DNA from: Prostheceraeus crozeri
Taxonomy: Eukaryota > Platyhelminthes > Polycladida > Euryleptidae
Reading direction: 5' to 3'
Length of the DNA: 64,000 nucleotides
Assembly (NCBI GenBank): GCA_907163375.1
Contig: CAJQUW010014381.1
Location: forward strand, 248,001-312,000
Below, piece by piece: positions 1-56,132 of this stretch. Numbering within the stretch: position 1 is the stretch's first letter; each line of letters opens with the position of its first letter. The position numbers were made by a program, and so were the translations under genes. The notes under the pieces were generated by a model that did no database searches, was not told the origin of the DNA, and was given only the letters and a program-made list of their open reading frames with translations.

Positions 1-226
1 ATTTGATTTTATCACAGACTTCTAATATGAAGAAGCTATGTTGCATCCCATGTTCACAGTTGCCAAAAATTCATGTGTCATTGAACTGCTTAAGTACATG
101 TTGCAAAAGTGATTCATACAAGACGGTTCAAAAAAAAGCAAAAGCAGGTCTCAAACACAAACGCAAACCCTAGAGGAGAAAAAGACCGTTACTTTGAGGC
201 AAATAAGCGATCCCTCTTAATAGACG
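1..226. other. Upstream flank of Maverick integrase
   Basis: AT-rich sequence before the integrase start. An in-frame TAG just upstream of the ATG at 227 supports that start. No terminal inverted repeat could be recognised. Confidence 0.4.
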
Positions 227-1250
227 ATGGATAAACATCTGAAATCAATTTACTATAACCCAAAGCATTATGCAGGTTATGCTTCAGTGAAAAAGTTGTC
301 ACAAGCAAGTGGTTATTCACAGAAACAAATGAAGAGATGGTTAAAAGCTCAACCTGCATATACATTGCACACACAAGCTCGAAAACGTTATCCTACCCGT
401 TCTTATATCGTTCATGATATTGATGAACAATGTCAAGCAGATTTGGCTGATGTTTCTTTATTAGCTAAAAAGAATAAAGGCTATCGCTTTCCCCTAATTG
501 TCATTGACTTATTTTCCCGTTATGCTTGGGTTCATCCACTCAAGACAAAACGTGGTGAAGAAGTGGCCGAGGCTTTTCAAAATATTTTCAGTGAAGGACG
601 CATTCCCACACGTATTCAGACTGATCAAGGGAAAGAGTTTGAAAACAGACATGTGCGTGCTTTATTTCGCGAACTGTTTAGTGTGAAAAGTGCATACAAG
701 GCTGCAGTGGTCGAACGCTTTAATCGTACACTGAAAACTCGTCTATGGCGCTATTTCACTGCATAGTAACGCAAAAGTGGACGGATGTATTACAAGATAC
801 TGTACACGCTTACAATCATTCTGTTCATCGCATGATTGGTCACAAACCTGCTGACATAACTCCAGACATGGTGGATACAATCCGTGAAATCAATGCCAAA
901 CGCAAGCAACCATCACAAGGTAAACGTGACTTTCAGATTGGTGACATAGTTCGCATTTCCAAGGTAAAAAGCGTGTTTGTTAAAGGTTATCTTCCCAATT
1001 GGACAGAAGAAATATTTACTGTCTCTGAGGTTAACAAGAAATTCAAGCCCACTACCTACAAGCTTCGTGATTATCATGGTGAAGAATTTGAAGGGAGTTT
1101 TTATCGTCATGAGATAACGCCCATCACCAAAGAAGATGATGACTACATGGTTGAAAAGATACTTCGTCACCAAATACGACAAGGGGAAAGTGGAGCCTGG
1201 TGAAATGGGTTGGCTATCCACATTCAATGAACAGTTGGATTCGTCATTGA
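227..1250 (+). pseudogene. Maverick integrase (RVE, chromodomain C-terminus), frameshifted
   Basis: Integrase inserting element DNA into the host genome. The first frame (227-766) holds the RVE catalytic core: the first acidic residue in QADLADVS, a second Asp in TDQGKEFEN and the Glu in VVERFNRTLK, giving a DDE triad. The stretch between the second Asp and the Glu looks shorter than usual for this family. The frame breaks near 760 and continues from about 745 to 1200 with an SH3-like segment (GDIVRIS, GYLPNWTEEIF). A second shift near 1185 leads into a chromodomain end (LVKWVGYP) with a stop at 1248-1250. The start ATG gives the usual N-terminus beginning with a short basic stretch and IYYNP. 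Nearest relatives are Maverick integrases of the F54H12.3 type. It cannot make a full protein as read. Confidence 0.88.
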
Positions 1251-1322
1251 CCTATATCGTGTTAGTCAACGTTCCTAAGCAAAGTAATGAATTGTGTAAA
1301 TATAAATATATAAAAAATACCT

Positions 1323-1710
1323 ATGGATCAAACTGCTATGTTTTATTCTGCTCCCTCCTATGCTAGTCATGGAGCTGGCTTTCCCGTTTATGCTGGATCG
1401 AGACGTCAAAAAGGGGTAGTCTATTGGGTGCTGTCAAAGGTATGATGCTCCCCACTTTCTCAAATGTGGGAAAATCAGCTTTAAAGGAGTTGTAGGATTA
1501 GCAGCAGATGTAGCAAGTGATGCACTTTCAGGAAGATTGCCGATTCGTGAATCGTTAAAGCGTCATGGAATACAGCGTTTGAAGAATGTCGGTAAGGCTG
1601 GTATCAGGTCTGTCATCAGTCATATCAATCCACTCTCTACTTCAGGCAAACGTAAGCGAAGAGCATCCCGTATACCTCCAACCAAACGCAGACGACGTGG
1701 ACTGTTTTAA
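1323..1710 (+). pseudogene. Maverick basic core-like (adenovirus pX/pVI-like) protein, frameshifted
   Basis: Small basic virion protein between integrase and capsid genes. The N-terminal reading (ATG 1323) has a Gly/Tyr/Ser-rich segment ending in GFPVYAGSRRQKG. After a frameshift near 1415 and another near 1485 the frame continues through a small-residue hydrophobic stretch (GLAADVASDALSG) to a strongly basic tail rich in KRKRR and RRRRG. The stop is TAA at 1708-1710. A glycine-rich start, small hydrophobic middle and basic end match the pX/pVI-like proteins seen in Maverick and adintovirus-type elements; this is inference from pattern and position. The capsid ATG at 1713 follows after 2 bases, so the two genes are tightly packed. 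Confidence 0.72.
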
Positions 1711-1712
1711 AT

Positions 1713-2990
1713 ATGGAATGTAAAAACTCATCCCTTTGCTTATTTGATAGAACACCTATAAAGACGGATATCATTAGAAATTATGTATCCATTCTCAATC
1801 CGCAGACAAGTATCGATTCCGGTAGTGTCATTGAGTTTTTAATACCAGGGAATGCTGCTGAGTACATCGCTGTAAATGACATCAATCTACATGTTAAGTT
1901 TAAGATAGTAAATAAGGACGGTACAAACCTGGACGACAAGGACAAAGTAGCCGTGAATAACTTGGCAATAGCGACGCTCTTCAAGGATATATCATTGACC
2001 ATCGGTGAAACTCGGGTTGAAGGTGGTCAACATAGTTATCCCTATCTCGGTTATTTTTCAACAGTCATGCAGTTCCAGCCACAAGCACAAAAGAGTCACA
2101 TGGCTGTTATGGGTTGGTGTAAAGATGAAGCTGGTAAATTTGATAGTGACAAAAACAAGGGATTTGTCACTCGTGAAAAGTGGACTGCAGAAAAATAGGG
2201 TGTGTGAATTATACGGTCCCCTATACTTGGACTTTTACCGTCAATCACGTTTCTTAATGTCAGAAGTAGACATGCGAGTTCATCTCTTGCCGAACGATCC
2301 TAAATTTGTATTGAATAATTATGGAGCAAAGACTGAATTTAAGATTGTGTTTGAAAGTGTTAGACTTTATGTGCGACGAATGACAGTGAATCCTTCGGTG
2401 ATTAATGGTCATGAGATGGGTTAGAAGAAGTATGATGCTCTTTATGATGTAAATCATACTGAGATCCATAGTTTCACTATTCCTCGTGCGCAAAAGAGCT
2501 TTGTTAAAGATAGTTTGTTTCCTATACAATCACCAAAAATGATCATTGTGGGATTGATTGCAAATGATGCATACAATGGTAATATATCGAAGAATCCCCT
2601 CAACTTTGAAAACTTTGGTTTAAATCAGATCGGACTGTATCGTGATACTGATTGCATTCCTGGTGCTCCTTTTTGTCCAGACTTCGCTAATGGACATTAT
2701 TCTCGCTCATATCAAAATACTATGGAGACAAATACTGGAATACTGATGACACCAATGGTTTGACCTATGATGAATTTGCTGAAGGTTATCCGCTTTATGC
2801 ATTTGATTTGACAGCAAACAATGAAGCAGGTGCTTCTTATCGTCCAGGAACTGCCACGAAGGGTCTTAAACTAGAATTCTTTTTTGAAGAAGATTTGACG
2901 AAAACAGTCAATGTACTCATCTATGCTGTGTTCGATTCCACCATTCGAATTAACAGGCTACGTGACGTTTCCGCTTCTTATACAAGTTAA
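1713..2990 (+). pseudogene. Maverick major capsid protein (double jelly roll), broken
   Basis: Major capsid protein of the F54H12.2-like family, expected to form the icosahedral shell. N-terminal features (VIEFLIPGNAAEYI, NDINLHVKFKI) and C-terminal features (PFCPDFANGHYSRSY, YPLYAFDLTA, a final INRLRDVSASYTS) are in family order. The length is about 425 codons. Reading runs in one frame to about 2195, shifts to a second frame, meets a TAG at 2422-2424, continues to about 2750 and returns to the first frame. Its TAA (2988-2990) overlaps the protease ATG by one base (TAATG), as in compact viral gene blocks. As read it encodes no intact capsid. Confidence 0.85.
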
Positions 2991-3505
2991 TGAGTTGGTT
3001 ATCTGATGCAGAGCTAGAGAGAGTCGTTCAAGAACATGGTGATGAACGCACTGTTGCAGCATTTCGTGGGGTGTTTTCTATCAATAATATGCCCACAGTT
3101 TTACCAAAGCCACCCTCGTTCATTATCATGAATACTGATACAGCACACTTACCCGGCAAACACTGGAAAGTTTTATTTATTGATAAAGACTATTGTGGTG
3201 AAATCTTTGATTCATTGACCTTACCAAACTGTGATTATGTCACACGTTTCATGAACCGTCATTCACGAAAATGGATTTGCAATGCTTTGGCCTATCAACA
3301 TCCCTTGTCCTCAGCATGTGGAGCATATGCCCTCTACTTTGTAATACAACGACTACATTGTGACTCTTTACATGACATTTGTAAACATTTTTCACATGAT
3401 GCCCTTGTCAATGAAAAGCGCATTCGTATTTTTATAAAAGCCTTCAATAAATATGTACGATTAAAATTTGTTTTCTTTATTATACTTCAATGCAAAAGTA
3501 GATGA
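2990..3505 (+). CDS. Maverick adenain-like cysteine protease, open throughout
   Basis: Maturation protease of the adenain/Ulp1 fold, expected to cleave virion precursors. The frame is uninterrupted over 171 codons. The catalytic His lies in LPGKHWKV, an acidic residue follows in GEIFDSL, the oxyanion Gln is in AYQHPL and the nucleophilic Cys is in SSACGAYALYF. Residue order and spacing (His near 57, Cys near 109) fit the family, whose members are commonly close to 160-200 residues. The last roughly 15 residues (FVFFIILQC) look unlike the family and may be read-through after a lost stop. It directly follows the capsid gene. It is the only long Maverick gene here without a visible break; whether it is expressed is unknown. 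Confidence 0.85.
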   Translation: MSWLSDAELERVVQEHGDERTVAAFRGVFSINNMPTVLPKPPSFIIMNTDTAHLPGKHWKVLFIDKDYCGEIFDSLTLPNCDYVTRFMNRHSRKWICNALAYQHPLSSACGAYALYFVIQRLHCDSLHDICKHFSHDALVNEKRIRIFIKAFNKYVRLKFVFFIILQCKSR

Positions 3506-5398: not shown

Positions 5399-5995
5399 CT
5401 AGGTACGCATCTGAGCAAGTTGTGAAGACAACATGCTGTCATAATCAATGCATCTGTAACTTCGACATTCACAGCAATGGGTGCATAAAATATTCTGAAC
5501 ACTTGACTTGAGGGCGAAAGAGTTCTCAGAAACTCTCCTTGCACGTGAAAGCCTGTAATTAAAAATGGCTTTCGAGCTGTCGAGTCGGGCAATGCTTCTT
5601 GGATACGGTTTCATCATATGAGTTGACAGTTTAAATGCTTCATCACCCACACATACATGCGGCAATTCAAGATTATCATGCATTTGTTTCGGAGGTGGGT
5701 AAAAACCATCGCTCTTTATCAACTTTCCAATATTGGACTTCTCGATTATACCACTATCGCCTTCTTTTCCATATGAGCCAATATCGACCATCACAAATTT
5801 GTAATTAGCATCAACGAATGCCAACAAGACCACAGAGAAATGATCCTTGTAATTATAAAACTGAGAGCCACTTTTTCCTGAACAATATATGCGGACATGC
5901 TTGCCATCTACAGCTGAGATGCATGCTGGAAAGTTCCACTTGTCCTCGAAGACTTTCGCGATATGAGTACCATCATCATCGTGCTTTCCATCGCA
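5399..5995 (-). pseudogene. PIF/Harbinger transposase (DDE_Tnp_4), frameshifted
   Basis: Catalyses cut-and-paste of the Harbinger element. Reading on the minus strand is open from about 5995 to 5399. It holds the first catalytic Asp in ISAVDGKHVRI (codon at 5906-5908), VDANYKFVMVDIGSYG, the second Asp in CVGDEAFKLS, the MMKPYP signature, and the Glu in RARRVSENSF. After ENSFAL the frame shifts near 5510; the true C-terminus (YAPIAVNVEV, CCLHNLLR) is read in another frame down to about 5400. The N-terminal part expected upstream of 5995 could not be followed beyond a TAA at 5996-5998. All three DDE residues survive, but the frameshift and missing N-terminus make it a pseudogene as read. Confidence 0.88.
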
Positions 5996-15765: not shown

Positions 15766-16480
15766 GCTGCATGCCTCAGATGAACCCACTTTCGAATTTT
15801 ATCGCAAACCAGCAAAGAAAAACCGTTTTGTACATTATCGTTCCCATATACCTCAAGCAGCGAAACTGAACTGAACGAAAAAGACAGGATATCAGAAGGA
15901 TGCTCGAATGATGCAACATATAAAAAATGTGAGAATAATTTAAATAGAACTCTTCAACGTAACGGTTATCCTGATTCAATGATAAAAATAGCAAGCAATA
16001 AAAAGAAAACGAAGTTAACAGAATGTTGAATACATGTATTTCCCACTTCCATTCGTCTCCGAAAAAGTAGACGAACAAATCAAGAACGTGTTTCGCTGAG
16101 AAAACATAAATATTAGAGTAATAAGGAAGAACAAAACCTTACGAAGTGCTTGGAAACAAAAACGAACGACTCCAGAGTGCACACTCCAAAATTGTCCCAT
16201 CAGAAATAACAAAATGTGTTTCCAAAGGTGTGTAGTATATCAAATTACATGTGACAAGTGCAAACAATTTTATATTGGCAGCACCGTTATACATTTGCAC
16301 CTACGATGTCGTGAACACACCACCAACATCAACTCATCTGTATTCAACCCTGCAAACATGAAACATCTATAGGACAATAATAAGAACAACAGTTTTGTGA
16401 TTTGATAATAATTCAACCAACCTTCGTTTGAGAGAAGCCTATTACATTAACAAGCTACAACCAAGGATCACATTTTCCGG
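15766..16480 (+). pseudogene. Penelope-like element fragment: RT end plus GIY-YIG endonuclease (copy 1)
   Basis: A + strand fragment begins within the RT C-terminus (EPTFEFYRKPAKKNRFVHYRSH). After a frameshift near 15872 it continues with RISEGCS and LQRNGYPDSMIK, then a linker (LPFVSEKVDEQIKNVFR). The GIY-YIG endonuclease follows: CPIRNNKMCF, VVYQITCDKCKQFYIGS, and LHLRCREH; a CXXC pair precedes the YIG motif. It ends near LREAYYINKLQPRI. Penelope-like elements join RT to a C-terminal GIY-YIG nuclease in this order. At least two frameshifts and stops are present, and most of RT is missing. Confidence 0.78.
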
Positions 16481-16664
16481 GATCTTGGGCGGTTCTACAT
16501 CCAATGCATTTCTCATTACAGGGTCCTTCGGATTTCTCAACGAATATTTCAGAGCAGGTTCAATTACAAATACTCTGAAATATTCGTTGAGAAATCCGAA
16601 GGAGACAAGACCCTGTAATGACAAATGCATTGGATGTAGAACCGCCGAAGATCCCGGAAAATGT
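16470..16664. repeat. Snap-back inverted repeat, arms about 85 and 92 bp, loop 18 bp
   Basis: Positions 16470-16554 are the near-perfect reverse complement of 16573-16664, with a few single-base differences and small gaps, separated by 18 bases. The right arm is coding sequence of the second GIY-YIG fragment; the left arm is an inverted duplicate of it. Confidence 0.92.
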
Positions 16665-16973
16665 CTTAAGAAAAATGTAATTTATGAAATCAAATGCTTG
16701 ATATGTGATCAAAGATACATTGGTGAAACGTCGAGAACAGTACAACAAAGAATTTACGAACATACGAAACAAAAATCATCACACGTAAAAATGCACATGG
16801 ACCTGCACCAGAATAATGATGAAACACCAGCTTTCTCCTGGAAGATCCTGCATCCCGTGAAAGCAAAGAAGTTGAGAAAAGCTACTGAAGCTCTCTACAT
16901 ACGAGATTGTGACCCACAAAAATTGATAAATGGATGCAAAGGGTGGTGGAATGTACCCATTTTCTTGACTTAA
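16560..16973 (+). pseudogene. Second GIY-YIG endonuclease domain (Penelope-type, copy 2)
   Basis: An open frame to the TAA at 16971-16973 encodes CNDKCIGCRTAEDPGKC, VIYEIKCLICDQRYIGETS, RIYEHTKQKSSH and, near the end, RKATEALYIRDCDPQKLIN. This is a full GIY-YIG endonuclease with a preceding Cys cluster. It is clearly diverged from copy 1 (YIGETS against YIGST). It is preceded not by RT but by an inverted copy of its own start (16470-16554). The nuclease part itself is open, but no RT is attached. Confidence 0.75.
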
Positions 16974-37262: not shown

Positions 37263-37892
37263 AGAAAGTTTCTTTAATCTGGTTTAATTTGACCTCAAGG
37301 TGACTTTGCATTCGTCATCCACATTATTCAAATTGCTTTCTTCCTTCACAATGCATAGCTTAATTCCGTCAGTTTCTTCTAATTGTTGTTTATTGAAATA
37401 TACATTACATACACCTGACGAATAACAAATTTCCAAAATATTAATTCCAATATCATTGAGAATACATAGCTTTTGAAACTATCATGTCTTAAAAAGGCAA
37501 TTTTGCTAACCTTCCAGCCTTGCGTGTTAAGAACACTTGAAGTCTGAAAAATTAGACTAAAGCAAAAATTGCCTGAAAAAAAGTTTTTAAACTTTATGAA
37601 TTAGTTGATGGAAATCAAAATATTTTCATGATTATATAAAAGTACAAAAAATTAGCCCTTCTATCCGTTAGTGCCATGTTCAAATCTTATGAATAGCTCA
37701 CGGGCTACAAGCCATTCAACAAAGACCTGAACCAACTGCGGTTCGCTTAAAATACAAAGAAACAATAGGCCTTGTAATATAAATTGCCATCGCACTTTTA
37801 GGATAGGCTACCAGTCAATCTCGCATTCTTGAAATATTTTCTTCAGTCGTCGATTAGCAATGCACTTTGTCAAGAATACATAGGCCCTAAAT

Positions 37893-38700
37893 TCAGAAAA
37901 TGTCACATTTTTGATACAAACGAGACGTTTGCGCCATGGCAAATGTCACGAAACATCAATGAAATTTGACATGGAGGTACCTGTGACTCATTAGTGAAGA
38001 TGCTTTAGCATAGCCAAAACGCGTCATCTAAGGGGTGCAAAGGAAGACAAACGCATAGAGTGTTAGAGGAGAATCACAAAATGTCACATTTTTGGTACAG
38101 AACGAGACGTTTGCGCAATGGCAAAATGTCACGATAACATCAATGAAAATTTGACATGGAGGTACCTGTGACCTATTGTGAAGATGCTAAGCATAGACAA
38201 GCGACGTCATCTCAAGGTGCATAGGATGAAAAACGCCATAGAGTTTAGAGGAGAATTCACAAATTTCACATTTTGGTACAAAACGAAGACGTTTTGCGCA
38301 TAAGGCAAATGTCACGATAACATCAATGAAATTTGACATGGAAGGGAACCTGTGACAATTGTGAAGATGCTTAGGCAGTCAGCCAAACGCGTCATCTAAG
38401 GGTGCATAGGAAGACACAAACGCCATAGAGTTTAGAGGAGAAATTCCACAAAATGTCACATTTTTGGTACAAACGAGACGTGGATTTTGCCGCATGGCAA
38501 ATGTTTCACGATACAAACAATGAAAATTTGACTTGATGGAGGTACCTGTGACTATTGTGAGATGCTTTAGCTTAGGACAGGCTCGTCATCTCAAGGTGGC
38601 ATTAGGATGAAAAACACCATAGAGATTAGAGGAGAATTTCCACAAATGTCACATTTTTGGTGCGAACGAGACACGTTATGCGCATGGCAAACAGCTTGAG
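37893..38700 (-). repeat. 175-bp satellite array B in left arm
   Basis: Inverted relative to arrays A and C, with about four to five units. Many single-base insertions compared with array C (for example extra G, A or T within otherwise conserved words). Confidence 0.9.
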
Positions 38701-39069
38701 AGGAGCGATGAATGTTGAAGTTGAGCATCTGATAGTATAAGTGTATACGTTTGACATTGAAAACCACTTCTCTTAGCCGGCTCACCAGGTTTGGGGTCGA
38801 ATTTTTCGAATATGAACTGGTTTATGGAGGAAATCAACCAATTTAAATCGTGCCATAACAATTGCAATGAGCCGTGCTGGATTGCCCACCACGTTCTCAC
38901 TACAGGCATCTGTGCAATATGTGATTGGATTGTGAGTCCATAATGTCAGACATAAAGGAATAATGACACATGATTTCACTCAAGTGGGGATAGTTGGGAA
39001 GTTCAAGATATTTCGAAAAAAATATAAATTTAATTTTGAGTGATTTGATTTGCTGAAAATGGACTAATG

Positions 39070-39073
39070 ATGG
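39070..39073. repeat. Left ATGG target-site duplication of gypsy element
   Basis: ATGG before the 5' LTR; matched at 47741-47744. The uninterrupted right arm has a single ATGG here. Confidence 0.9.
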
Positions 39074-40031
39074 TGTAACAGGGTTGCTTATTTGTTTATA
39101 TGTAGTAAAATTATAACTAGTACTTAACGTAAATATTTTAATTATAGGTGTTGGTATTTTCACTATTGATGTGAAGAACTAAATTGTACATAGGTATTGC
39201 TCACAAATCTGGGAGCATTGGCGCAATTTTCTGGTGAAGGGTTGTAAAGTTATATCACATTCAAGTGATAATTTGAGGATTTCACGGACATGTATGAATA
39301 ATTGTATATAATTGTAAGGTGTTGGTGGCTTTCCGATTTATGGGGTTTTGGGTGGTTCTGTCTGGTTAAAAGTATAGGCAGAACATAAGATAAACATGGA
39401 AATTAAGTATTCCTGGTGTTAGAATGTACCATTTTATTATAAATGCAATGAGTAAAGCTCACGGCGCTAGCGTGCAGCGCGCGGTTCAAGCAAAACGTTG
39501 CTCTCTTAAAATTATACGGCTGATGGTAAGTCCACTGCTACTCAACTGAACTAAGAAGTTTTAGGCAGAGTGGCGTAGGTTTATGACATAGGTTTATGAA
39601 ATTTCCATTGCGGCTAATTAATTAATCGTAAGCAGCGTTATAACTTTGCCGTCTAATCTGAGGGTTACGATAGATGTAAGAAGATAGCAAGACATAAATT
39701 CAGCGGAATTAGGAGGTTGGGGTTTTATGATACTTCTGTTTCAGCTTATTAACTGCTACCACACACAACCGTTATAACGTACATGGGTAATACCCACAGA
39801 TTCATTCGAGTTAGGGTATTACCTATAATACCTAGTTAACTGGTTAGGGCAGGCTTAATAACTAACCAGGCGCATCTTCGAGTGACGTTCGCGTGGCTGT
39901 CAGGTGCTCGTCCACATCATAAGGATTCGACGTGGTGAACTTGGAGTGACCGGATCGTGATACGGAGACTGTAGGTTTCTTACTGTAGTAATCAATTGGG
40001 TTAAGGGTCTCTCATAGCTCGGTCTGTTACA
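39074..40031 (+). repeat. 5' LTR of the Ty3/gypsy element (958 bp)
   Basis: Begins TGTAACAGGG and ends GTCTGTTACA. It matches 46807-47740 throughout but with numerous small indels, mostly extra bases in this copy. Confidence 0.95.
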
Positions 40032-40032
40032 C

Positions 40033-40045
40033 TGGTGGCAGCGGT
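40033..40045 (+). promoter_or_regulatory. Primer binding site, tRNA-Leu type
   Basis: TGGTGGCAGCGGT begins two bases after the 5' LTR and is complementary to the CCA-bearing 3' end of a tRNA-Leu with the CGCTGCCA acceptor. Thirteen matches from memory of the tRNA end. Confidence 0.7.
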
Positions 40046-40068
40046 TAAAACCCATACCAAATTGAGAA

Positions 40069-41400
40069 ATGGCTTTTAGCCCAAGTGTTGACTTATTTGA
40101 AACTGGCGACAGTGGGTTGTTTTTTTCGAATACACAAACTGACGCTGTCCGTGGTTTCCCACTTTTGGATAATGAAGTTCCAACCCAGTCCATGCCACCT
40201 TCTTACGCCACGTAGTTCAAATGTTGATTGCATTTATAAAAAAATAGGCAAGGTTGAACAAGGGATTGGGAATTGACCAGTCGTTTAGAGCACTTAATGG
40301 AAAATCAGAAAAGCACCAAGAAAGAGAAAATTCCAGATGATTTGTCTCAGCTGCAAAAGTTTAACGGTCCAAATCGATTTTCAGAGATGGGTTAAGTCAT
40401 TTGAATTTCTCTCGGCTGACCTTTCTGACGAGAAGAAATTACGTGTTTTGGTTGTAAAAACCGTGGGTAAGGCCAATGAGATTGTTATAGATAAGGCAGG
40501 GACACACACATATCGTGAGATTGTCGCGGATTTGAGCAATCGATTTTCACTCTTTAGGACTGCCGTGGAAGCGGAGACAGCTTATGATTCTAGAACACGT
40601 CGTTCAGCAGAGTCGGGTAGGGATTTTGCAGATGATTTATTAAGAATCGGAGCCCAGGCATTTCCTAGAATGACTGAAGTGGAACTACGCGAAAAGATTA
40701 TGCATACCATGATGGTGCGCGAAGCTAATCGGGACGTGAAACTTTCAATGAGTCGATTTCCACCATCATCGTTGAGTAATTACTTGGATATTGTCCGAGG
40801 ATTTGAAAGAATCGATAAACCCAGTACTACCACCGGTGGTACTGTTTCTCCTGTCCGACCAGTTATAACTGCTGTTGCGTCTAGTAATCCAGGCATTCGT
40901 TGCTTTAAATGTCAAGAATTCGGTCATATCGCTCGGGGTTGTCCTAAGTCTGTCAACGTCTTCCAACGGACCATGTCATGGCCGTCTCAGACTCCACGTC
41001 AAACTATGAACAGGCCGACAAATTCAACGTTTTTTCAGCAACCGTTCTATCAGTCACAAGCGGGTTAATTAATGCGCCATCGAACGTTCAGCCCGCAGTT
41101 CCGCAAGTAAGACCAATTTTGGGTCCTGACACAACGGTATCTCGGTCAACACTCCCAAGGGAATCGCGGTTGCCTGTTGTCGAGCAACCCACCAGTTATG
41201 GAAACACGGCTCAAAAATTGACTGGGTTTCCGGGACAAAATACTACGTATACTGGGGTTGCCGATGCATCGGCATCAGGCTACCAGCCACAGCAAAATAG
41301 GCCCGCTGGGTGCTTTGCAGCCTACTTTAACTGCTCGGCAGGGTCCATGTTATAATTGTGGACAGTATGGACACTTAGCTCGTAATTGTCCGCAGGGAAA
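40069..41400 (+). pseudogene. Ty3/gypsy Gag with two CCHC zinc knuckles
   Basis: Forms the virus-like particle and binds element RNA. ATG 40069 starts FSPSVDLFETGDSG but stops at 40213. A coiled-coil-like segment follows in shifted frames, then the capsid-like region (VKSFEFLSADLSDEKKLRV, REIVADLSNRFSLF, EVELREKIMHTMM) to 41068. The first zinc knuckle is CFKCQEFGHIARGC (from 40901). After a frameshift a Gln/Pro-rich stretch leads to a second knuckle CYNCGQYGHLARNC near 41349. Two CX2CX4HX4C knuckles are common in Gag of this lineage. At least three frame changes are seen. Confidence 0.85.
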
Positions 41401-44400
41401 CGAGCAGCGGCGATAGATACGTCCCGGCCTCTCGCCGGCTCTCGTTTGAAACGGGACTCAGCAAATATAGCAGAAATTCTTGTTGGTGACCAGATAGTTA
41501 AAGCTCTGGTTGATACCGGTGCAGATGTGTCGGTATGTAATAGTATATTAGTGCATGATCAGCATATTATCCCGATTCCTAATGTGTCCTGTATTCAAAC
41601 TACAAATGGCGAAAAACTTCATATTTTGGGAACTACTGTCATTTATTTTCAGATAGGAATTTGCACAGTATATCACACTTTTTTTGTTTCTGCCAATCTA
41701 TCCACTAACATGGTTTTAGGAATGGATTTCCTAGGTGATTATGACGGTGACGTGGACGTGGGCACTAAAACCTTGCATTTACCTCGACTGAGTGTTCAAG
41801 TACCTCTTCGCAAACGTCGTACTACGAACACTGTGCTTTTTAAAATCGCTATCAATAATACAGTTGTTCTTCAGCCGCACTCAGAACAGCTGCTTTCAGC
41901 AAGAATTTTGATGAAAGGAAAGGGTCCAGAACCGTTAACGGGTATGGTCATGCCCAGTTCAGAGACGGACGATCTTGGCGTGTTTGTTCTGCCGACAGTT
42001 TCGACCGTTAAGAAAAAGGAAGTCACCATATCTGTTTGCAACAACTCTTTGCAACATGTTACTCTAAAGAAAAATACAGCAGTAGCCAATTTCGAATTGA
42101 TTTCCGCAATGTATGATAGCGTAAATTATATTCAAGACGTTTTTCCAAGTGATGTTGCAGCTCAAGTAAATCATGTGACTCTTGAGTCGCAATCAGAGGA
42201 GGAGTCTTCCGCATTAACTGCTCGAGAACGTCAAGAATTGGATAGCATACTTAAATCGTATGCTGATGTGTTTATGCGAAGGAAAGCCATTAGGTAGGGC
42301 AGTGAACGCTCAGCATTTTATAAATACTGGGGATCACCCTCCTATTCGTCAACCTTGTCGACGGATTCCACCCTCTCAGAAGTTAGAAGTTAGCCGCCAA
42401 ATACAGGAAAATGTTGGATCAAGGCGTTGTTTCACATAGTAGTAGTCCCTGGGCTAGTCCATCGTTCTTGTCCAGAAGAAGGACGGGACTTTGAGATTTT
42501 GTGTTGATTTTCGAAAATTGAATCAATGTTGCCGATACGATAGCTATCCTTGCCCAGGGTCGATGATGCTTTGGATTCTATGGGAGGGGCTCAATACTTT
42601 TCGGTACTTGATTTGAAGTCTGGTTATTGGCAGATTCCCTTGGCGGAGGAGGATAAAGCAAAGTCTGCATTTGTTTGTCACAGGGTCTTTATGAGTTCAA
42701 TGTTCTTCCATTCGGTCTGGCATCAGCTCCTGCCACTTTTCAGCGCATGATGGACGAGAAGTTGAGAGGGTTAATTGGAGAAATTTGTTTAGTCTACCTT
42801 GACGATATTATTATTTTTAGTCGTAGTTGGCAAGATCATTTGTGTGATATTCAATTGGTATTAGACAGACTGCGACTTGCTAATCTGCAACTCAATACTA
42901 AAAAGTGCCAATGGGGACTTAGTTCTGTCAAGTATCTTGGTCACATCGTGACGTTCAAGGTATTAGGACTGATCCTGAAAAGACAAACAGAGTTAAAGAA
43001 TGGCCGACGCCAGCAACTGCTAAGCAAGTACGAGAATTTTTAGGTTTAGCGTCTTATTATCGCAGATTTGTGCAAGACTTTGCGAGATTAGCTAAACCGT
43101 TGCACGAATTAACTAACAAAGACAATACTTTTGTGTGGACTGATCGTTGTCAGGAAGCGTTTGACTCTCTTAAACGCTGTTTAACATCCACTCCGATTTT
43201 GACCATGCCAGATTTCACTGAGGCTGGTGGTGCTTTCATTCTTGATACTGATGCCTCTGGCTACGCCATAGGTGCTGTCCTCTCACAAGTACAGCATGAT
43301 GGAAAGGAAAGGGTTATCGCGTATGCAAGCAAAACTTTGAATCGAGCTCAAACTTCCTACGCCCCTACGAAAAGGGAGATGCTTGCCCTAGTAACATTCA
43401 TCGACCACTTTCACGTATACTCGACGGGTAAAAAGTTTTTAGCACGAACAGATCTCAAAGCACTTGAATGTTTGAAAGGCTTCAAAGAGCCTAGAGGGAT
43501 GCTTGCGCGCTGGTTGCAAATTTTGGAAGAATTTGATTTCGATTGCTTATACCGCGCCGGAACCTCGCACAAAAACGCAGATGCTCTCTCTCGCTTGACT
43601 AATGCGCCAGACGAAGAGACGTCAGACCCCCCGAATCGCATGGATGGTGATGATGTTGTTATTTTTAGTCTATGGTCCCAGGGGCTGGGGTAGATGAAAT
43701 GAAACGCAAGACTTCGGCTGATCAAGACTTGGCGCAAATTCTGTTCTGGAAAACTCGTTTATCCATCTTCGACAAGCCATCTTCTAGACAACTGGAAACA
43801 TGCTCCCAGGAAATAAAGAACATTGTTCGATTTTGGGAATTTCTTGTTGTGGAAGATGGTCTCTTATATCGGTTAGATGGCGATAAGAAAAAAATAATTC
43901 CACCAAAAGACGAGCGAATGGCTATTATCAACCAATGTCACTCAGGGATGGGCAATTCTCATTTGGGCCGTGATAAAACTTACCACAAACTGCGAGCGAG
44001 GTTCTGGTGGCCAGACATGAGACATGATACCACGACGTGTTTGAACAGATGTGAGGTATGCGTTACCTTTAAGGGGCCTATTCCAAAACTGCGACATCCC
44101 ATGATGCCAATCGTAGTCGGAAGACCAATGGAATGTGTTGAAGTTGATCTCATAGGTCACTGTGTAAGACTAAGAGAGGCAATCGTTACGTCTTGACTAT
44201 GGTTGACTTATTTTCCAAATGGGCTGAGGCAATTCCCCTTCCTAACAAGGAAACGTCTACGGTAGCTGGGGCATTCCTTAGAGAATGGGTTTGCCGTCAT
44301 GGAGTCCCTGATAGAATTCATTCTGATAAGGGGACAGAATTTGAATCAAAAATTTTTCGAGAATTGTGTAATCTTTTGGGTTCCATGAAGTCACGTACCA

Positions 44401-45045
44401 CTGCATATCATCCTCAAGGGAACGGAGGGGTTGAGCGTTTCAATCGAACGTTGAAGCAGTTAATGTTGTCCATGCGGATGTAGAGAGAGAGGAATGGGAT
44501 CTGACACTGTCCTACTGCTTTGGGCTTATAGGTCCAGTACACACAGCACAACAGGGTTCTCTCCTGCGGCCGTCACTTATGGGCGAGAAATGAGAATGCC
44601 CGTCGATTTCGAACTGGATATAGACACTGTTGTCGAACGAGAAACCTCCGACTATATCTATGAACTGCAAGAGCAGCTTCTGCGGACGTGGGAGACGGTG
44701 AAAAAATGTGCGGTAGTGGAGCAGGAACGCCAAAAGGAAAGCTATGACAGAAAGACTACAAGTACTTGCAAATACCAGATGGGTGACTTGGTAATGTATT
44801 TCAAAACTGCTGTCCAAAGGGACAAACAAAAGAAATTTTTCAGACCTTGGGTAGGTCCCTGGATCGTGGAAAGACGATTCTCAGATAGTACCTACCAGAT
44901 CAGAGATATTGGCGGCAGGAAAACTTTAGTTACTCATGTTGATAGGTTAAAGAAATTCCCATGTTCACCTCCTATCTCCCAGCAACGGGTTGGGGAGGTG
45001 GAAAGAGGAGAATTACCTACACGATTGTTGCAGATATCGAAGTAG
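41386..45045 (+). pseudogene. Ty3/gypsy Pol: protease, RT, RNase H, integrase
   Basis: Protease: IVKALVDTGADVSVC near 41500. RT (about 42300-43060): FCVDFRKLNQC, LDLKSGYWQIPL, FEFNVLPFGLASAP-type region and YLDDIIIFS (catalytic Asp pair at 42800-42805), with at least four frameshifts. RNase H (43070-43600): FILDTDASGYAIGAVLS, ARTDLKALECL, HKNADALSRL. Integrase: HHCC zinc finger (HSGMGNSHLGRDKTYH, CEVC, 43930-44070), DDE core with VEVDLIG, IHSDKGTEF and GGVERFNRTL, then a GPY/F-type module (WVGPWIVERRF, near 44850) ending KKF. Integrase after RNase H defines Ty3/gypsy. About eight or more frameshifts or stops break the polyprotein. Confidence 0.92.
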
Positions 45046-45419
45046 AAAGTAATGCGACAGATGAGACGGCAGAGATGATTTGCGATTCGGAATTGGATGG
45101 GGACATAGAAAGTAATGTAACAGAAGACACAGTAGAAATGATACAAGACTCTGATCCTGATGCGGGAATTAACAGTACCAGTAGTGACACTGTCGAAATG
45201 ATGGACGATGACATGTGTGAAATCGAGATCAATCATATTTCTTTACAGATGGCAACTGCTGCTGTACCAGAAGATGGTAAGACTACCAGAGACCAAGTAA
45301 TAGCATTTTTGTTAGCAGGACGGGCTTTGCCCGAATGTCCTGCCGGCTGGAACCGTAAAATGAAAGACAGATGTCTTTCCCGAGCAGTCGTCCAGGCGGC
45401 TCTCATAGCGCCGACCTGA
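44961..45419 (+). CDS. Acidic triple-repeat module downstream of integrase
   Basis: An open frame overlapping the integrase end. It has three imperfect copies of an acidic unit: ESNATDETAEMICDSELDGD, ESNVTEDTVEMIQDSDPDAG and NSTSSDTVEMMDDD. These are followed by ISLQMATAAVPEDGKTTRDQ, VIAFLLAGRALPECPAGWNR and KDRCLSRAVVQAAL, to a TGA at 45417-45419. It is not part of a standard Ty3/gypsy Pol. It may be the start of the additional protein that ends with the TatD domain, joined through 45420-45887. Function unknown; acidic repeats could mediate protein contacts. Confidence 0.45.
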   Translation: MFTSYLPATGWGGGKRRITYTIVADIEVESNATDETAEMICDSELDGDIESNVTEDTVEMIQDSDPDAGINSTSSDTVEMMDDDMCEIEINHISLQMATAAVPEDGKTTRDQVIAFLLAGRALPECPAGWNRKMKDRCLSRAVVQAALIAPT

Positions 45420-45887
45420 ACAGCAGTCAGCCCTGCAGGACAGGGTGCGCGAAATATGCTCCAGCTGGTCAGTTCCTCACCACCAGTTTATGAAATGCGC
45501 CATGCGTATGGGGGATTTGCCGGAGGATACCGGTGATCTCCATCCCAATCGACGGCGGCATGTCCGCAAGTTAAAAGGGCAGCAAAGGGCCCTGCGCTCG
45601 GGGAGGGATTCTGACTCTCGGGTGGGGCAGCTGGACGACGCCGTCCTGGTCGTCAGCGCAGAGGAGTCGCGTGGGGTTATCGACCCGTTGGCTCGGGCGG
45701 TCCTCCCAGTAGTGATAGGGAATCCAATTCCCACAGTCGCTAGGGGGGTTCGACTAGGTCCGGTTGGTGCTCCGCGTGATGACGCCGTGCGACTGCCAAT
45801 CATCATAGAGGATCCTCCTCAGCTGGTTGGGCAGGCTGAACCCCTCGGGGCCGGTCTACCTATAGCCGTGAAGAGGATCGTCCTGAT
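45420..45887 (+). pseudogene. Linker region before the TatD domain, frames unclear
   Basis: GC-richer than the rest of pol. One frame is open (45445-45891) with an Arg/Val/Pro-rich reading, but it may be a shadow. The correct frame linking the acidic module to the TatD domain could not be decided because of frameshifts. Confidence 0.3.
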
Positions 45888-46770
45888 ATGATGGCTCGAG
45901 GCGATCCGGGGGGCGAAGTTGAGCGCCCAGCTCCTGAGGGTTTGGAAATGCCCGAACCACTGTTACCATCAGGCCCAACCGTTTGGCGAGGTGACTCCCA
46001 TATTCATGTGTTTCGACAGCTGTCGCGCTGCTGGCCTTGCGGGGCATTTGGATGACATGGTGGACGCCATCAACGCCATGTCATGTGTAGTAGACATACG
46101 GGACAAAGTTTCTGTCTGGGACGAGTCGGACTTCCAGGATGATTTCCCTAATGTCCGCATCGTCATGGCTTTTGGGTTGCACCCACGTCATGCTGGAGAT
46201 TGGTCTCCATCTCTGGAGGCAAGGCTCCGTAGACGTGTGAACTCCAGCCTAAATGTCAGGGCGATCGGAGAGACGGGAATTGATCTCAAGTGGAACGTCC
46301 CCAATGGAGGCCCAACGTCGGTGTCTGGCTGACCAGGCACAGCTCGCTTACGAGCTTTCACTTCCTCTCATCCTTCACTGCAGGGAGAGGGAGTGGGGGG
46401 AAGTAGCTGCCCACAACATCTTGGCAGAGGAGCTGCTGCGGAATGTCAGCGCCGCTCAGATCATCGTCCTCCACTGCACGTATGTTGACCGCCAAATAGT
46501 GCGCTCACTGGCGGATCTCTTTCGTAATCTCTATTTCAGTATTGCTCCGATTCTCGTAAACGAATGGGTCACCGAGACTGTGCCAAGAGTCAAACCGTTC
46601 GGGCCATTCCGCTGGAAAGAATGCTGGTGGAGACCGATGCCCCACATCTGGCAAGAGTTCCTACAGCCACCGATCGAGTTATAACTAAAATCGCCATGCG
46701 TAGAGACATCAACGAAGAGCATCTCCGCAACATTTTAGAAGCCAATTTCATTCGAGTATTCCGACCGTAG
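45888..46770 (+). pseudogene. TatD-family metal-dependent DNase domain in retrotransposon, frameshifted
   Basis: TatD enzymes are TIM-barrel 3'-5' exonucleases/DNases using two metals. An ATG at 45888 leads through a Pro-rich stretch to WRGDSHIHVF, the HxH metal motif (from about 45989). After a shift near 46035 come CVVDIRD, FGLHPRHAGDW and VRAIGETGIDL (metal Glu codon 46270-46272). After a shift near 46300 come QAQLAYELSLPLILHCRE (His about 46376) and IIVLHCTYVD (His about 46472). After a shift near 46580 come IPLERMLVETDAPHL (Asp 46636-46638) and INEEHLRNILEANF, with a stop at 46768-46770. All ligand positions, HxH-E-H-H-D, are retained. Most like TATDN2-type eukaryotic proteins. It lies between integrase and the polypurine tract. 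Confidence 0.85.
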
Positions 46771-46792
46771 AATCGAGGACGATTCTATTTGT

Positions 46793-46803
46793 AAGGGGGG
46801 GAG
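46793..46803 (+). promoter_or_regulatory. Polypurine tract of the gypsy element
   Basis: AAGGGGGGGAG lies three bases before the 3' LTR; primes plus-strand DNA synthesis in active elements. Confidence 0.85.
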
Positions 46804-46806
46804 TAA

Positions 46807-47740
46807 TGTAACAGGGTTGCTTATTTGTTTATATGTAGTAAAATTATAACTAGTACTTAACGTAAATATTTTAATTATAGTGTGTTGGTTATTTTCACTA
46901 TTGATGTGAAGAACTAAATTGTACATAGGTATTGCTCACAAATCTGGGAGCATTGGCGCAATTTTCTGGTGAAGGGTTGTAAAGTTATATCACATTCAAG
47001 TGATAATTGAGGATTTCACGGACATGTATATATTGTATATAATTGTAAGGTGTTGGTGGCTTCCGATTTATGGGGTTTTGGGTGGTTTCTGGGTAAAAGT
47101 ATAGGCAAACATAAGATAAAGTTAAGTATTCCTGGTGTTAGAATGTACCATTTTATTATAAATGCAATGAGTAAAGCTCACGGCGGCTAGCGTGCGCGGT
47201 CAAGCAAAACGTTGCTCTCTTAAAATTATACGGCTGATGGTAAGTCACTGCTCTCAACTGAACTAAGAAGTTTTAGGCAAGTGGCGTAGGTTTATGACAT
47301 AGGTTTATGATATTTCCTTTGCGGCTAATTAATTAATCGTAAGCAGCGTTATAACTTTGCCGTCGCATCTGCGGGTTACGATATATGTAAGAAGTTAGCA
47401 AGACATAATTTCAGCGGAATTAGGAGGTTGGGGTTTTATGATACTTCTGTTTCAGCTTATTAACTGCTACCCATACAACCGTTATAACGTACCTGGGTAA
47501 TACCCACAGATTCATTCGAGTTAGGGTATTACCTATAATACCTAGTAACTGGTAGGGCAGGCTTAATAACTAACCAGGCGCATCTTCGAGTGACGTTCGC
47601 GTGGCTGTCAGGTGCTCGTCCACATCATAAGGATTCGACGTGGTGAACTTGGAGTGACCGGATCGTGATACGGAGACTGGTAGGTTTCTTACTGTAGTAA
47701 TCAATTGGGTTAAGGGTCTCTCATAGCTCGGTCTGTTACA
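46807..47740 (+). repeat. 3' LTR of the Ty3/gypsy element (934 bp)
   Basis: Same termini as the 5' LTR. Preceded by the polypurine tract. Confidence 0.95.
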
Positions 47741-47744
47741 ATGG
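47741..47744. repeat. Right ATGG target-site duplication of gypsy element
   Basis: ATGG directly after the 3' LTR. Confidence 0.9.
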
Positions 47745-50900: not shown

Positions 50901-52375
50901 AGTAATTAAACTCTAAGTGATAAGTTGCACATAAAATTCAACTTTTCAAAATTTGCGGAAGTGCTTTCGAATTGTTCCTCACCTTCATTTTTCGCCTCTA
51001 TACCGTACCGCGCAACCGCGAAAAAAATTTAAATACTGATAGCACGAATCGTCAAACTCGATCACATGCACATAGAATTCCTGTGATACAGCAAATAAGA
51101 GCTTCATCTGTAATATTTCAATTTTAAACTACTAAATATTGGAAAATCAGTGAATTTGCATCATAGCCTCATGGCGCCTCTTTCAGAGCTGTGTCGGCTA
51201 GTGATAATCCAAGCGACAGCAACAAGCGACTTGCACTGAATCCTTACTTGTCTTTCGCCATTGAACAATGACTAATTGCATTTCCAGTCGCCCAGTGATA
51301 GACTTAGTATAGGCTAACGGATTATTCACTTCGACCACAATTGAGCTACAAGCTTGCTCTATGACTACAAAAGCATGAGAACCCAAAAAAACCCGAGTCA
51401 TTGAGTGGATCACCGAATGGTGCCTTTGAACCAGTTTCATCACTGATATACACACCATCATGCTGTAACTTTTTACTTTGTCACCGATATTCCTAGACAT
51501 TCCAAATGTAAAGAATGATTTTAGAAGTGTTTAATATAATCGCAGCTCCATCGCTGAAATTCATCCCCGGAGCCATTATTTCAAAAGAGAACCGAAGCCT
51601 CTTGTATTGACGAACTAGACTTCGAGGATAACTGCAATCATCATGCCTGATTGTTCGAATCTCTGTCTTAGTAGCCATGTATCTGAGGGTTGTTTCGAGG
51701 CACAAATCGAATTTCTCTGGTCGACCCGGCTTGCGAAGTTGTCGTGGAGATGTTCTTAGAATGATCTAGTTGTCATGGTGGTAGAAATCGATCACAGTAT
51801 CTGATGCATGCAAAAAGAGTCTGACATGTGGATTGGATTTCCAAAAATTTGATGGAATCATGACAATTTGAACACTCAGGCATCATGACTTAGATAAGTG
51901 CAAGCGATAGTTGCATTGGCATCCACTGCCAGCTCATCTATATGTGGTTCTATATCATTCATGTGCAATCAAAAGTCCGAGATCAATGTGTCTGGCTGAA
52001 GGTTAGGCGGGCTGAGCTTTCCCTAGTCCCCTGTTCACGCGTGCTGTAGGATGCAAAGCAGGACCAAGAAAGGTGAAGCAAGACAAACAAACAAATCAAG
52101 ACACACACTTATTTCATTGAGGGATTTGGAGTCAGAAATTTCTGAGCAACTAGACACGACAACAAAAATGGAAGATTGCTGCACCAGATAGCCGGTGTAA
52201 TAGATGCGAGACCAAATATTTGCCGACTCAACCTATGCAGTAGCCATAGCCATTCCACCAACATCTGCTTATTCATTACTCATTATTCATCTGCTGCATA
52301 TGCACAGTGCCCTACACATAGCACTCCTTTCTATTCTTTAGTTATCTATATAGGGTTGTTCCTAACTAAGCCAAG
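47955..52375. other. Spacer between the inverted arms
   Basis: 4.4 kb not repeated in the arms. No transposase, RT or known domain seen. A minus-strand stretch at 51760-51198 reads protein-like in shifting frames (RKPGRPEKFDLCLETTLRY, FEIMAPGMNFSDGAAIILN, VYISDETGSKAPFGDP). A + stretch at 49281-49574 has a hydrophobic segment (LFLTIGMLIFDFIF), and one at 50274-50606 another (LSGMLSFIIFVAVTI). None is supported as a gene. Confidence 0.45.
51198..51760 (-). pseudogene. Possible decayed gene in the spacer (unknown family)
   Basis: On the minus strand from about 51760: LRKPGRPEKFDLCLETTLRY and KTEIRTIRHDDC, then RLRFSFEIMAPGMNFSDGAA and a stop. Further down, in another frame, come VYISDETGSKAPFGDPLND and, in a third, ITGRLEMQLVIVQW. 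The composition and continuity suggest an old coding region with several frameshifts. I do not recognise it. It lies centrally between the two arms, where a mobile element with long terminal repeats would keep its gene. Confidence 0.25.
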
Positions 52376-52958
52376 CAATCATAAGCTCCGTTCATCAGTC
52401 TGCAAGCCGATTCCACTGATCTAACCTCCTGCAATAAGACTTAACATTCATTGCAATGAAATAAAAGCTACTTACTTTCCCTGCTGCCTTGAAACATGCC
52501 GTGTGCGTAGATATAGGCTGATAGCTTCGTTAATAGCACGTATTCGACTTTGAAAACGCATTTGCAAATGTTTAGAGAAATGTTCCATCATTAGTCCATT
52601 TTCAGCAAATCAAATCACTCAAAATTAAATTTATATTTTTTTCGAAATATCTTGAACTTCCCAACTATCCCCACTTGAGCGAAATCATGTGTCATTATTC
52701 CTTTATGTCTGACATTATGGACTCACAATCCAATCATATTGCCAGATGCCTGTAGTAGAGAACGTGGTGGGCAATCCAGCACGCTCATTGCAATGTTATG
52801 CACGATAAAATTGGTTGATTTCCACCATAAACCAGACATATTCGAAAAATTCGACCCCAAACCTGGTGAGCCGGCTAAGAGAAGTGGTTTTTCATGTCAA
52901 ACGTATACCCTATACTATCAGATGCCTCAACTTCAACATTCATCGCTCCCTCAAGCTG

Positions 52959-53885
52959 TTTGCCATGCGCAAACGTCTCGTTCGCACCAAAAATGTGACA
53001 TTTGTGAATTCTCCTCTAAACTCTATGTGTTTTTCATCCTATGCACCTTGAGATGACGCGCCTGTCTATGCTAAGCATCTTCACAATAGTCACAGGTACC
53101 TCCATGTCAAATTTCATTGTTGTATCGTGACATTTGCCATGCGCAAACGTCTCGTTTGTACCAAAAATGTGACATTTTGTGAATTCTCCTCTAAACTCTA
53201 TGCGTTTGTCTTCCTATGCACCCTTAGATGACGCGTTTGGCTATGCTAAGCATCTTCACAATAGTCACAGGCACCTCCATGTCAAATTTCATTGATGTAT
53301 CGTGACATTTGCCATGCGCAAACGTCTCGTTTGTAACAAACATGTGACATTTTGTGAATTCTCCTCTAAACTCTGTGCGTTTGTCTTCCTATGCACCTTG
53401 AAATGACGCGTTTGTCTATGCTAAGCATCTTCACAATAGTCACAGGTACCTCCATGTCAAATTTCATTGATGTATCGTGACATTTGCCATGCGCAAACGT
53501 CTCGTTTGTACCAAAAATGTGACATTTTGTGAATTCTCCTCTAAACTCTATGCGTTTTTCATCCTATGCACCTTGAGATGACGCGCTTGTCTATGCTAAG
53601 CATCTTCACAATAGTCACAGGTACCTCCATGTCAAATTTCATTGATGTATCGTGACATTTGCCATGCGCAAACGTCTCGTTTGTACCAAAAATGTGACAT
53701 TTTGTGAATTCTCATCTAAACTCTATGCGTTTGTCTTCCTTTGCACCCTTAGATGACGCGTTTGGCTATGCTAAGCATCTTCACAATAGTCACAGGTACC
53801 TCCATGTCAAATTTCATTGATGTATCGTGACATTTGCCATGCGCAAACGTCTCGTTTGTATAAAAAATGTGACATTTTCTGAATT
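52959..53885 (+). repeat. 175-bp satellite array C in right arm
   Basis: Unit starts (TTTGCCATGCGCAAACGTCT) at 52959, 53133, 53308, 53483, 53658 and 53833, 174-175 bp apart. Cleaner than array B. The same two unit variants are present but do not alternate strictly. Confidence 0.95.
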
Positions 53886-56132
53886 TAGGGCCTATGTATT
53901 TCTTGACAAAGTGCATTGCTAATCGACGACTGAAGAAAATTTTTCAAGAATGCGAGATTGACTGGTAGCCTATCAAAAGTGCGATGGCATTTATATTACT
54001 AGGCCTATTGTTTCCTGACATAATCAGAACCATAGAAAAATAACCATCATTAGGCCTGTACGTTTAATCATGCATTTAGTCAGTCAATTATATTTTAAGC
54101 AACCGCAGATGTTCAGGTCTTTGTTGAATGGCTTGTAGCCCGTGAGCTATTCATAAGATTTGAATGATTCAACGATAGAAGGGCTAATTTTTTGTTCTTT
54201 TAATAATCATAAAATATTTGATTTCCATCAACTAATTCATAAAGTTTAAAAACTTTTTTCATGCAATTTTTGCTTTTAGTCAATTTTTCAGACTTCAAGT
54301 GTCAAACACGCAAGGCTGAAGTAGCAAATTGCCTTTTTAAGACATGATATTTTCAAAAGCTATGTATTCTCAATGAATGGAATTAATATTTTTGAAATTT
54401 GTTATCGTCATGTTATGAATGTTATTTCAATAAACACCAATTAGAAGAAACTGACGGAATTAGCTATGCATTGTGAAGGAGAAGCAATTTGAATAATTGG
54501 ATGACGAATGCAAAGTCACCTTGAGTCAAATTAAACCAGATAAAGAAATTCTGTCTATTGTCTTCAATATAGTGGTGGCATTATTGCTTCGCACCGTCAT
54601 TGCTATCCTTTGAATCAGGAAATATCGAGACCTTGATTCTGCAGAATTATACCTGACGTTGTTGGAAACATCAGACACAACTTTGTGACTGACGGTTGCC
54701 ATGTGCCCATTGTTTCTACGTAAACTGATACAAAAAGGATGATAAGATGGAATACTTAAGCCCTTCACGGTCTTCGTCTAGCGTGGCAGTTTTTCCTGTT
54801 TCTTCTGTTGTTATTTCTTGATAAATTGGTGTCATCGTGCTATTGTATTAACGTGTATTTTGATACTATGGTTTTCTATCATGGCATGAATACGCGTCAG
54901 TTCAAAATGTCGAAATGCAATTTGTTGCTGCAAACTTAGCATGTTCGAAAATTGAGGTCTGAAAAATCGGCTAAATAGAACTTTTCAGAATTTCATGAAT
55001 CAGATAATGATAATGAAGCGGTTTTTCATCTTTGGAAAATTCAGGAAATAAACTTTTCTATTGATGTGGAATCATTTAGATCCTGTAAGTAGTTCATGGC
55101 TGCAGCTCATTGAGGAAAGGCATATGCTTATATAATTATGTATTATTATTATATTTTAAATTCATATAAATTTAAGAACCACCGCTCACATAATTAGTAA
55201 CTTTTAAAAAATGAGTTCGGTAGAGTCAAATATCATTCATTATCTAACATAAATTTGGTGGAAAATTCATTTGGGTTGATCCAATCACTTCTTGATTGTA
55301 TATATCTTTGTTCATAAAGTCATCTGTACAATCAAGGAGTCCTTGGTTGATCTGAAGTTATAGTGCTCTCATCTTCGTTTCACTCAAAATCAGATACATT
55401 ACATACAGTTACTGATGATGGCATTGCATTCCAAATGCTATTCCAGTCGGTTGACATCGAGGTGGTACAAAAGGTTTTACAGTCGAATGGATATTTGATA
55501 TAGCTATGGAGCTTTCATTGAAACAATACGAGGTCATCATTGGAACTGCACGAGGACTTTCCTTCTATGTGACTATTTCCCCATATTTGTGAATTCTATT
55601 TTTGAGAGGAAGCATGGTTCTTATGAAAGCATAGTAAAACTCATCATTGTTTTGAATTTTTAAACATGCACTTTTTGAATTATTGAAATTCGGAAATGTT
55701 ATTTTCTGATAACTGATTGGAACAATGGCTCAGTGTAGAATGCAATTTTTACTGATATCTTTAAGGAAACTGTGCCATATCGGCCTATATTAGTTTGGTA
55801 TTTGGATGTCTCTTATGAAATCAACAAAAGAATGATTGTTATAAGTGATTGATTTCCTCAGAGAAGCTCTTCATATCGATTAAAGAGGGTCGATTGGAAT
55901 GATGAATTAAATTTAGTGAGCAATTACCAATCATTTATTGATTTTATGCAATGTTAGAAATGTTTATCCTTGTTTTGAAGAGTTAGAGGTTTTAGGAGTA
56001 ATTCATCCTAAAATAGCCTTTGAAACAAGGTGAAATACATAAAATCATCGAAATAACAAAATTCCTCATCTTTTGCATGAATCATGATGGTGTTATTGTT
56101 TTTAGATACTGTAGTAATAATATCATCCTGGC

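Follow-up and report, generated by a model that had tools for sequence, protein, structure and literature searches.

The closest precedent for the locus described here is provided by LTR retrotransposons of bdelloid rotifers, Vesta and Juno, in which ORF3 after pol encodes either a DEDDy 3'-5' exonuclease or a GDSL esterase and in which most lineages carry a dUTPase domain, as described in the consulted parts of PMC5408684. For the ORF3 products the authors suggest, without proof, a role in 3'-end processing, and the evolution of these ORFs did not deviate significantly from neutrality (same parts of PMC5408684). An AlkB-type domain that is active in vitro has been found in orchid Ty3/gypsy elements, where 38 consensus sequences of one species and 23 of another contain it (consulted section of PMC9289625), and LTR elements have also been reported to transduce fragments of host genes (PMC7264820, in the part consulted). 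Among the TatD nucleases, the HxH motif defines Group II, which includes TATDN2 and TATDN3 (PMC10085689, in part). For TATDN1, TATDN3 and the TatD paralogues of E. coli, AP endonuclease activity is reported alongside 3'-exonuclease or nuclease activity (PMC10085689 and PMC12709183, in part), and TATDN2, composed of a disordered N-terminus and a C-terminal TatD domain, has been described as an RNA 3'-exonuclease/endonuclease resolving R-loops (consulted part of PMC12709183).

No description of a TatD domain inside an LTR element was found in the open-licence literature, as judged by titles and abstract openings. TatD is mentioned neither in PMC5408684, nor in PMC6338049, which deals with accessory domains of retrotransposons, nor in PMC7264820, which deals with additional ORFs of plant elements, and it is not named in the consulted section of the orchid AlkB study (PMC9289625). 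An earlier note on this DNA had regarded a metal-dependent DNase as foreign to the standard Ty3/gypsy protein set; enzymatic ORFs behind pol, including a 3'-exonuclease, have already been described in the rotifer LTR elements (PMC5408684).

Within the window, by which we mean the whole stretch of 64,000 nucleotides that was analysed, positions 39074-47740 are occupied by a damaged Ty3/gypsy LTR retrotransposon, with the following boundary features:

39070..39073, no strand: target-site duplication ATGG, left copy (MAFFT/sequence)
39074..40031, + strand: 5' LTR, begins TGTAACA and ends TGTTACA (blastn and MAFFT)
40032..40052, + strand: putative primer-binding site adjoining the 5' LTR (by position only)
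46793..46803, + strand: polypurine tract, ends 3 bases before the 3' LTR (sequence)
46807..47740, + strand: 3' LTR, begins TGTAACA and ends TGTTACA (blastn and MAFFT)
47741..47744, no strand: target-site duplication ATGG, right copy (MAFFT/sequence)
52375..52755, - strand: empty target site, an inverted duplicate of both flanks without the element (blastn and alignment)

The pair of LTRs with TG...CA ends and the short target-site duplication are those of a Ty3/gypsy element. Blastn aligns the two LTRs over 966 columns at 95.4% identity, finding 12 mismatches and 22 gap openings, and 21 mismatches and 16 gaps are counted in the MAFFT alignment. The duplicate of the flanks at 52375-52755 is contiguous and inverted, and contains a single ATGG (52585-52588). 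Identity to this arm by blastn is 97.7% for the left flank, in an alignment of 174 columns containing 1 mismatch and 2 gap openings, and 99.1% for the right flank, in one of 214 columns containing 2 mismatches and no gaps; when the joined flanks (384 bases) are aligned with the arm (381 bases), the junction is free of mismatches and gaps, and the sole gap, of 3 bases, lies near the far left end. Because the empty site is seen in the inverted arm, TatD lies inside one inserted unit (39074-47740), and this block, TatD included, appears to be a single insertion into an older inverted duplication, which confirms the proposal of the earlier note that the domain is a part of the element and not its neighbour. 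The inverted repeat arms that flank the element (37802-38919 and 52585-53974) hold satellite arrays with a period of 175-183 bp, and the 11% indels in the left array versus 0% in the right one hint at uneven assembly quality.

The gag-pol region was resolved by Pfam into the following pieces:

40298..41065, + strand: gag piece with a CCHC zinc knuckle (PF00098, E 5.5e-5)
41386..42294, + strand: aspartic protease, with a dUTPase-like stretch behind it (PF13975, E 3.3e-7; PF00692, E 4.9e-6)
42657..43040, + strand: reverse transcriptase piece (PF00078, E 1.3e-22)
42923..43690, + strand: RNase H (PF17919, E 3.7e-32; PF17917, E 8.5e-31)
43669..44193, + strand: integrase zinc-binding domain (PF17921, E 5.3e-18)
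44148..44480, + strand: integrase core (PF00665, E 6.7e-16)
44464..45045, + strand: integrase C-terminal domain, then a stop at 45045 (PF22938, E 2.8e-11)

The domain order (CCHC, aspartic protease, dUTPase-like stretch, RVT_1, RNase H, H2C2, rve, Integrase_p58_C) includes the PR-RT-RH-IN succession of Ty3/gypsy elements, and pol resembles gypsy-type polyproteins. The dUTPase-like stretch between the protease and the reverse transcriptase (41806-42093, PF00692 E 4.9e-6) seems by eye to lack what we take to be the catalytic dUTPase motifs, and an active dUTPase with a role in uracil or abasic repair was set aside for this reason.

Behind the integrase stop follow, in this order, an acidic repeat linker, a further linker and TatD, whose end at 46770 lies 36 bases short of the 3' LTR and about 1.7 kb behind the integrase:

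45042..45416, + strand: frame-0 acidic linker, in which an imperfect repeat occurs three times at a spacing of 60-63 bp (translation and repeat search)
45322..46671, + strand: GC-rich block covering linker and most of TatD (GC 0.576, versus 0.440 elsewhere in the internal region; change-point)
45892..46329, + strand: frame-1 ORF whose later part is TatD, with GLHP and GETGID (PF01026 profile positions 53-98, E 5e-5, 23.3 bits, below the cut-off)
45909..46037, + strand: N-terminal TatD piece in frame 0, with HxH in DSHIH at 45993-46007 (three-frame translation, by eye)
46301..46560, + strand: TatD piece in frame 2, with LILHCRE and VLHCTY (PF01026 profile positions 101-180, E 1.3e-10, ORF 46253-46681)
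46591..46770, + strand: C-terminal TatD piece and stop in frame 1, with VETDAPHL (PF01026 profile positions 187-253, E 1.6e-9, ORF 46528-46767)

The TatD profile PF01026 is covered in Pfam at positions 53-253 by three collinear pieces, two of which exceed the curated cut-off of 27 bits, and the domain is thus a member of this family by profile match; three collinear matches of this strength are not chance. The first 52 profile positions are unmatched, and the N-terminal stretch with DSHIH receives no TatD score in Pfam. The ligand motifs DSHIH, GLHP, GETGID, LILHCRE, VLHCTY and VETDAPHL follow one another in order across the frames, the HxH being recognized by eye only. The NCBIfam profile TIGR00010 also hits these three pieces (E 9.7e-7, 2e-6 and 1.9e-8), with scores far under its whole-protein cut-off. 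Pairwise alignments to solved TatD structures link the GxHP...GE.G.D region to 3rcm (weakly, E 0.039), the HCRE region to 1j6o (E 0.0053) and the VETDAP region to 1yix (E 5.3e-4), and the proteins matched by the TatD pieces in the PDB are named TatD-family or YcfH, none of them TATDN2 or TATDN3. The arrangement given in the earlier note, a TatD domain with its ligand motifs between the integrase and the polypurine tract, inside LTRs with a 4-bp duplication, is therefore borne out by Pfam, by the HxH seen by eye and by the two ATGG copies.

By its HxH the predicted nuclease belongs to Group II, together with TATDN2 and TATDN3. It shares HxH and an identical motif order with TATDN2/TATDN3 and with bacterial YcfH/YjjV, and differs from all of these in being encoded within an LTR retrotransposon; the position of TatD behind a long linker also resembles TATDN2 as described in the consulted part of PMC12709183. 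With the orchid Ty3/gypsy elements, the element shares an extra enzyme that modifies nucleic acids, although the host there is a plant and the enzyme a demethylase instead of a nuclease (PMC9289625, in part). The resemblance to Vesta and Juno extends to the LTR structure, the dUTPase-like domain and the enzyme domain behind pol (PMC5408684, in part). The enzyme itself differs: TatD stands here where the rotifers have a DEDDy nuclease or GDSL esterase. The TatD fold is unrelated to that of either rotifer enzyme.

In this copy the TatD frame is not open: it passes through frames 0, 1, 2 and 1 across 45993-46770, and because of these breaks the domain is present while an extra ORF as such is not seen. 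The broken frame favours the alternative that TatD is a passenger, that is, a nuclease gene or gene fragment transduced by template switching, functionless and decaying, for which the reported transduction of host gene fragments by LTR elements offers a precedent (PMC7264820, in part) and which we nevertheless regard as unlikely. The gag-pol region of the element is likewise split over several frames, so that TatD is not specially decayed and the breaks do not single it out. Furthermore, the LTRs differ from each other more than the duplicated flanks do, a hint of uncorrected sequencing error in repeats, and the frame breaks may have arisen from such error.

The passenger explanation draws further on the composition and the borders of the segment. 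The GC-rich block at 45322-46671 yielded a log-likelihood ratio of 40.1 versus a maximum of 11.2 among 40 block shuffles, the shuffles being scanned in 30-base steps and the real sequence in 10-base steps, and this break implies that the history of the linker-TatD module differs from that of gag-pol. An exact 13-mer direct repeat, AGTAATGTAACAG, at 45111-45123 and 46802-46814 brackets the linker and TatD; an exact 13-mer repeat with copies at least 500 bases apart arose in 33 of 1000 first-order Markov simulations, and the repeat may be the trace of a capture by template switching or may be due to chance. Being both GC-rich and bracketed by this repeat, the linker-TatD module may have been captured. 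The same sharp GC block and bracketing 13-mer, along with the fact that no second copy was seen, could be explained by a later nested insertion of TatD into this one copy of the element only. We consider such an event quite improbable, given that no clear terminal inverted repeats surround the block or TatD, where the other repeats are short and imperfect, and that one copy of the 13-mer belongs to the linker repeat unit and the other spans the start of the 3' LTR, so that the repeat is not a plain target duplication and could be fortuitous. The GC break and the 13-mer would thus fit either a one-copy insertion or a passenger.

The distribution of TatD among related elements was assessed with RNase H as the query, which retrieved 3358 proteins at E <= 1e-10; the comparison was made on the best 120 of these 3358, among which Trichinella and a pseudoscorpion are represented. 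These relatives, together with the abundance of other transposons in the window, point to a probable animal host. None of the best 120 is annotated with PF01026 (0/120), and none matches the TatD pieces at E <= 1e-3, a test on pol proteins that sees only TatD fused to pol and that a separate ORF would escape. In the 111 of these proteins with a detectable integrase C-terminus, the tail behind it has a median length of 71 aa and reaches at least 250 aa in 9, and 8 of the 9 long tails contain, by eye and over at most 700 residues, further retroelement or transposon sequence. One gypsy polyprotein, P0054, resembles the element in its related pol (RNase H 50% identical) and in the long stretch behind the integrase, but its 529-aa tail (residues 1153-1681) is SGNH/GDSL-like, by eye only and with no support from Pfam or the PDB. 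The tail of P0054, as judged by eye, parallels the GDSL ORF3 of the rotifers. An alignment search with RNase H in the viral and prokaryote-genome collections produced nine gypsy loci (1 + 8), none of whose ORFs of at least 80 aa matches TatD with an E-value below 0.67; room of at least 1 kb behind the integrase or pol exists in 6 of the 9 loci and of at least 1.7 kb in 4 of them, and one locus (L005) ends before the integrase. The absence of TatD from these distant relatives, the best 120 of 3358 and the nine loci, is consistent with a passenger. Their RNase H is at most ~61% identical to that of the element, so that they say nothing about its own family.

Relatives of the TatD domain itself were sought with its frame-2 piece. 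Among polyprotein-length proteins, 177 candidates included none at E <= 0.001 (a short query against a huge database, without positive control), and among proteins of ~270-860 aa, 387 candidates included none at E <= 0.01 (again a short query without positive control); these searches could reveal fairly close relatives only and remote ones would escape. No TATDN2 sequence came up in either of them. Pattern scans gave no relatives either, with 20 TatD pattern stretches in viral contigs, 85 in genome contigs and, for the RNase H piece alone, 11 in viral contigs. Had a conserved host TATDN gene been captured recently, it should presumably have been visible in the protein searches. Although no relative was scored, the ligand motifs have been preserved, which argues against a passenger and suggests, from the sequence of this copy, constraint after an old acquisition of TatD rather than a fresh capture from the host.

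Taken as a whole, the locus can be explained as a degraded Ty3/gypsy element whose lineage took up a TatD nuclease as an extra 3' module acting on the nucleic acid of the element, a reading to which we give an even chance of being correct and against which speak the single copy seen, its broken frame, the GC break and the 13-mer, the lack of TatD in the best 120 proteins and in the nine loci (both weak tests), and the rotifer precedent, where no deviation from neutrality was significant. TatD would then sit where env or an enzymatic ORF3 is found in other elements, and the module would be translated with or after pol into a product probably consisting of the acidic linker and the C-terminal TatD domain, in a layout like that of TATDN2. 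This product would work before integration as a metal-dependent 3'-exonuclease/endonuclease, either shortening RNA or cDNA at the 3' end or clearing RNA from the hybrids that RNase H leaves behind. Trimming of 3' ends or of hybrid RNA, during or after reverse transcription, is the most likely role by analogy, as predicted from TatD chemistry and from the action of TATDN2 on R-loops (PMC12709183, in part), and we read TatD as a putative auxiliary 3'-end or hybrid nuclease of the rotifer ORF3 kind. For such a role we infer fixation of TatD in the lineage, its expression, its packaging and its substrate. A function in counter-defence, with TatD degrading host nucleic acid or silencing intermediates, could be proposed on the basis of the general nuclease activity of TatD proteins (PMC10085689, in part) and of a weak likeness between the QatD profile and the C-terminal piece (E 3.3e-5; 23.2 bits, where the cut-off is 230), which may reflect no more than general TatD likeness; as nothing links TatD to a host target, we consider this function highly improbable.

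If TatD is fixed in the lineage, it would be the second 3'-end nuclease fold that LTR retroelements have recruited at this position, which would point to end or hybrid processing as an unrecognised step of the retroelement life cycle, and invertebrate genes annotated as TATDN2-like would need to be checked for retroelement origin. More broadly, and only tentatively, we propose that an animal Ty3/gypsy lineage possesses a fixed Group II TatD module serving reverse transcription or integration, that some of the multicopy invertebrate genes annotated as TATDN2-like derive from such elements as fragments or by domestication, and that the slot behind pol repeatedly recruits 3'-end nucleases of unrelated folds, which would be DEDDy in rotifers and TatD here. 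A weak hint in this direction comes from the giant squid, where the ORFs of the Hox cluster include TATDN2 beside a pogo-type transposon gene and others (PMC6962438, in the part consulted).

The window is rich in other transposons detected with Pfam. At 224-3502, an integrase core (PF00665) lies near a C48-type protease (PF02902) in an arrangement that is Polinton/Maverick-like by eye, and the ORF between these two matches (1656-2195) has no Pfam match. A DDE_Tnp_4 transposase (PF13359, E 5.3e-19) is encoded at 5402-5995 on the - strand, and a GIY-YIG domain (PF01541, E 7.5e-7) at 16401-16970 possibly belongs to a Penelope-like element.
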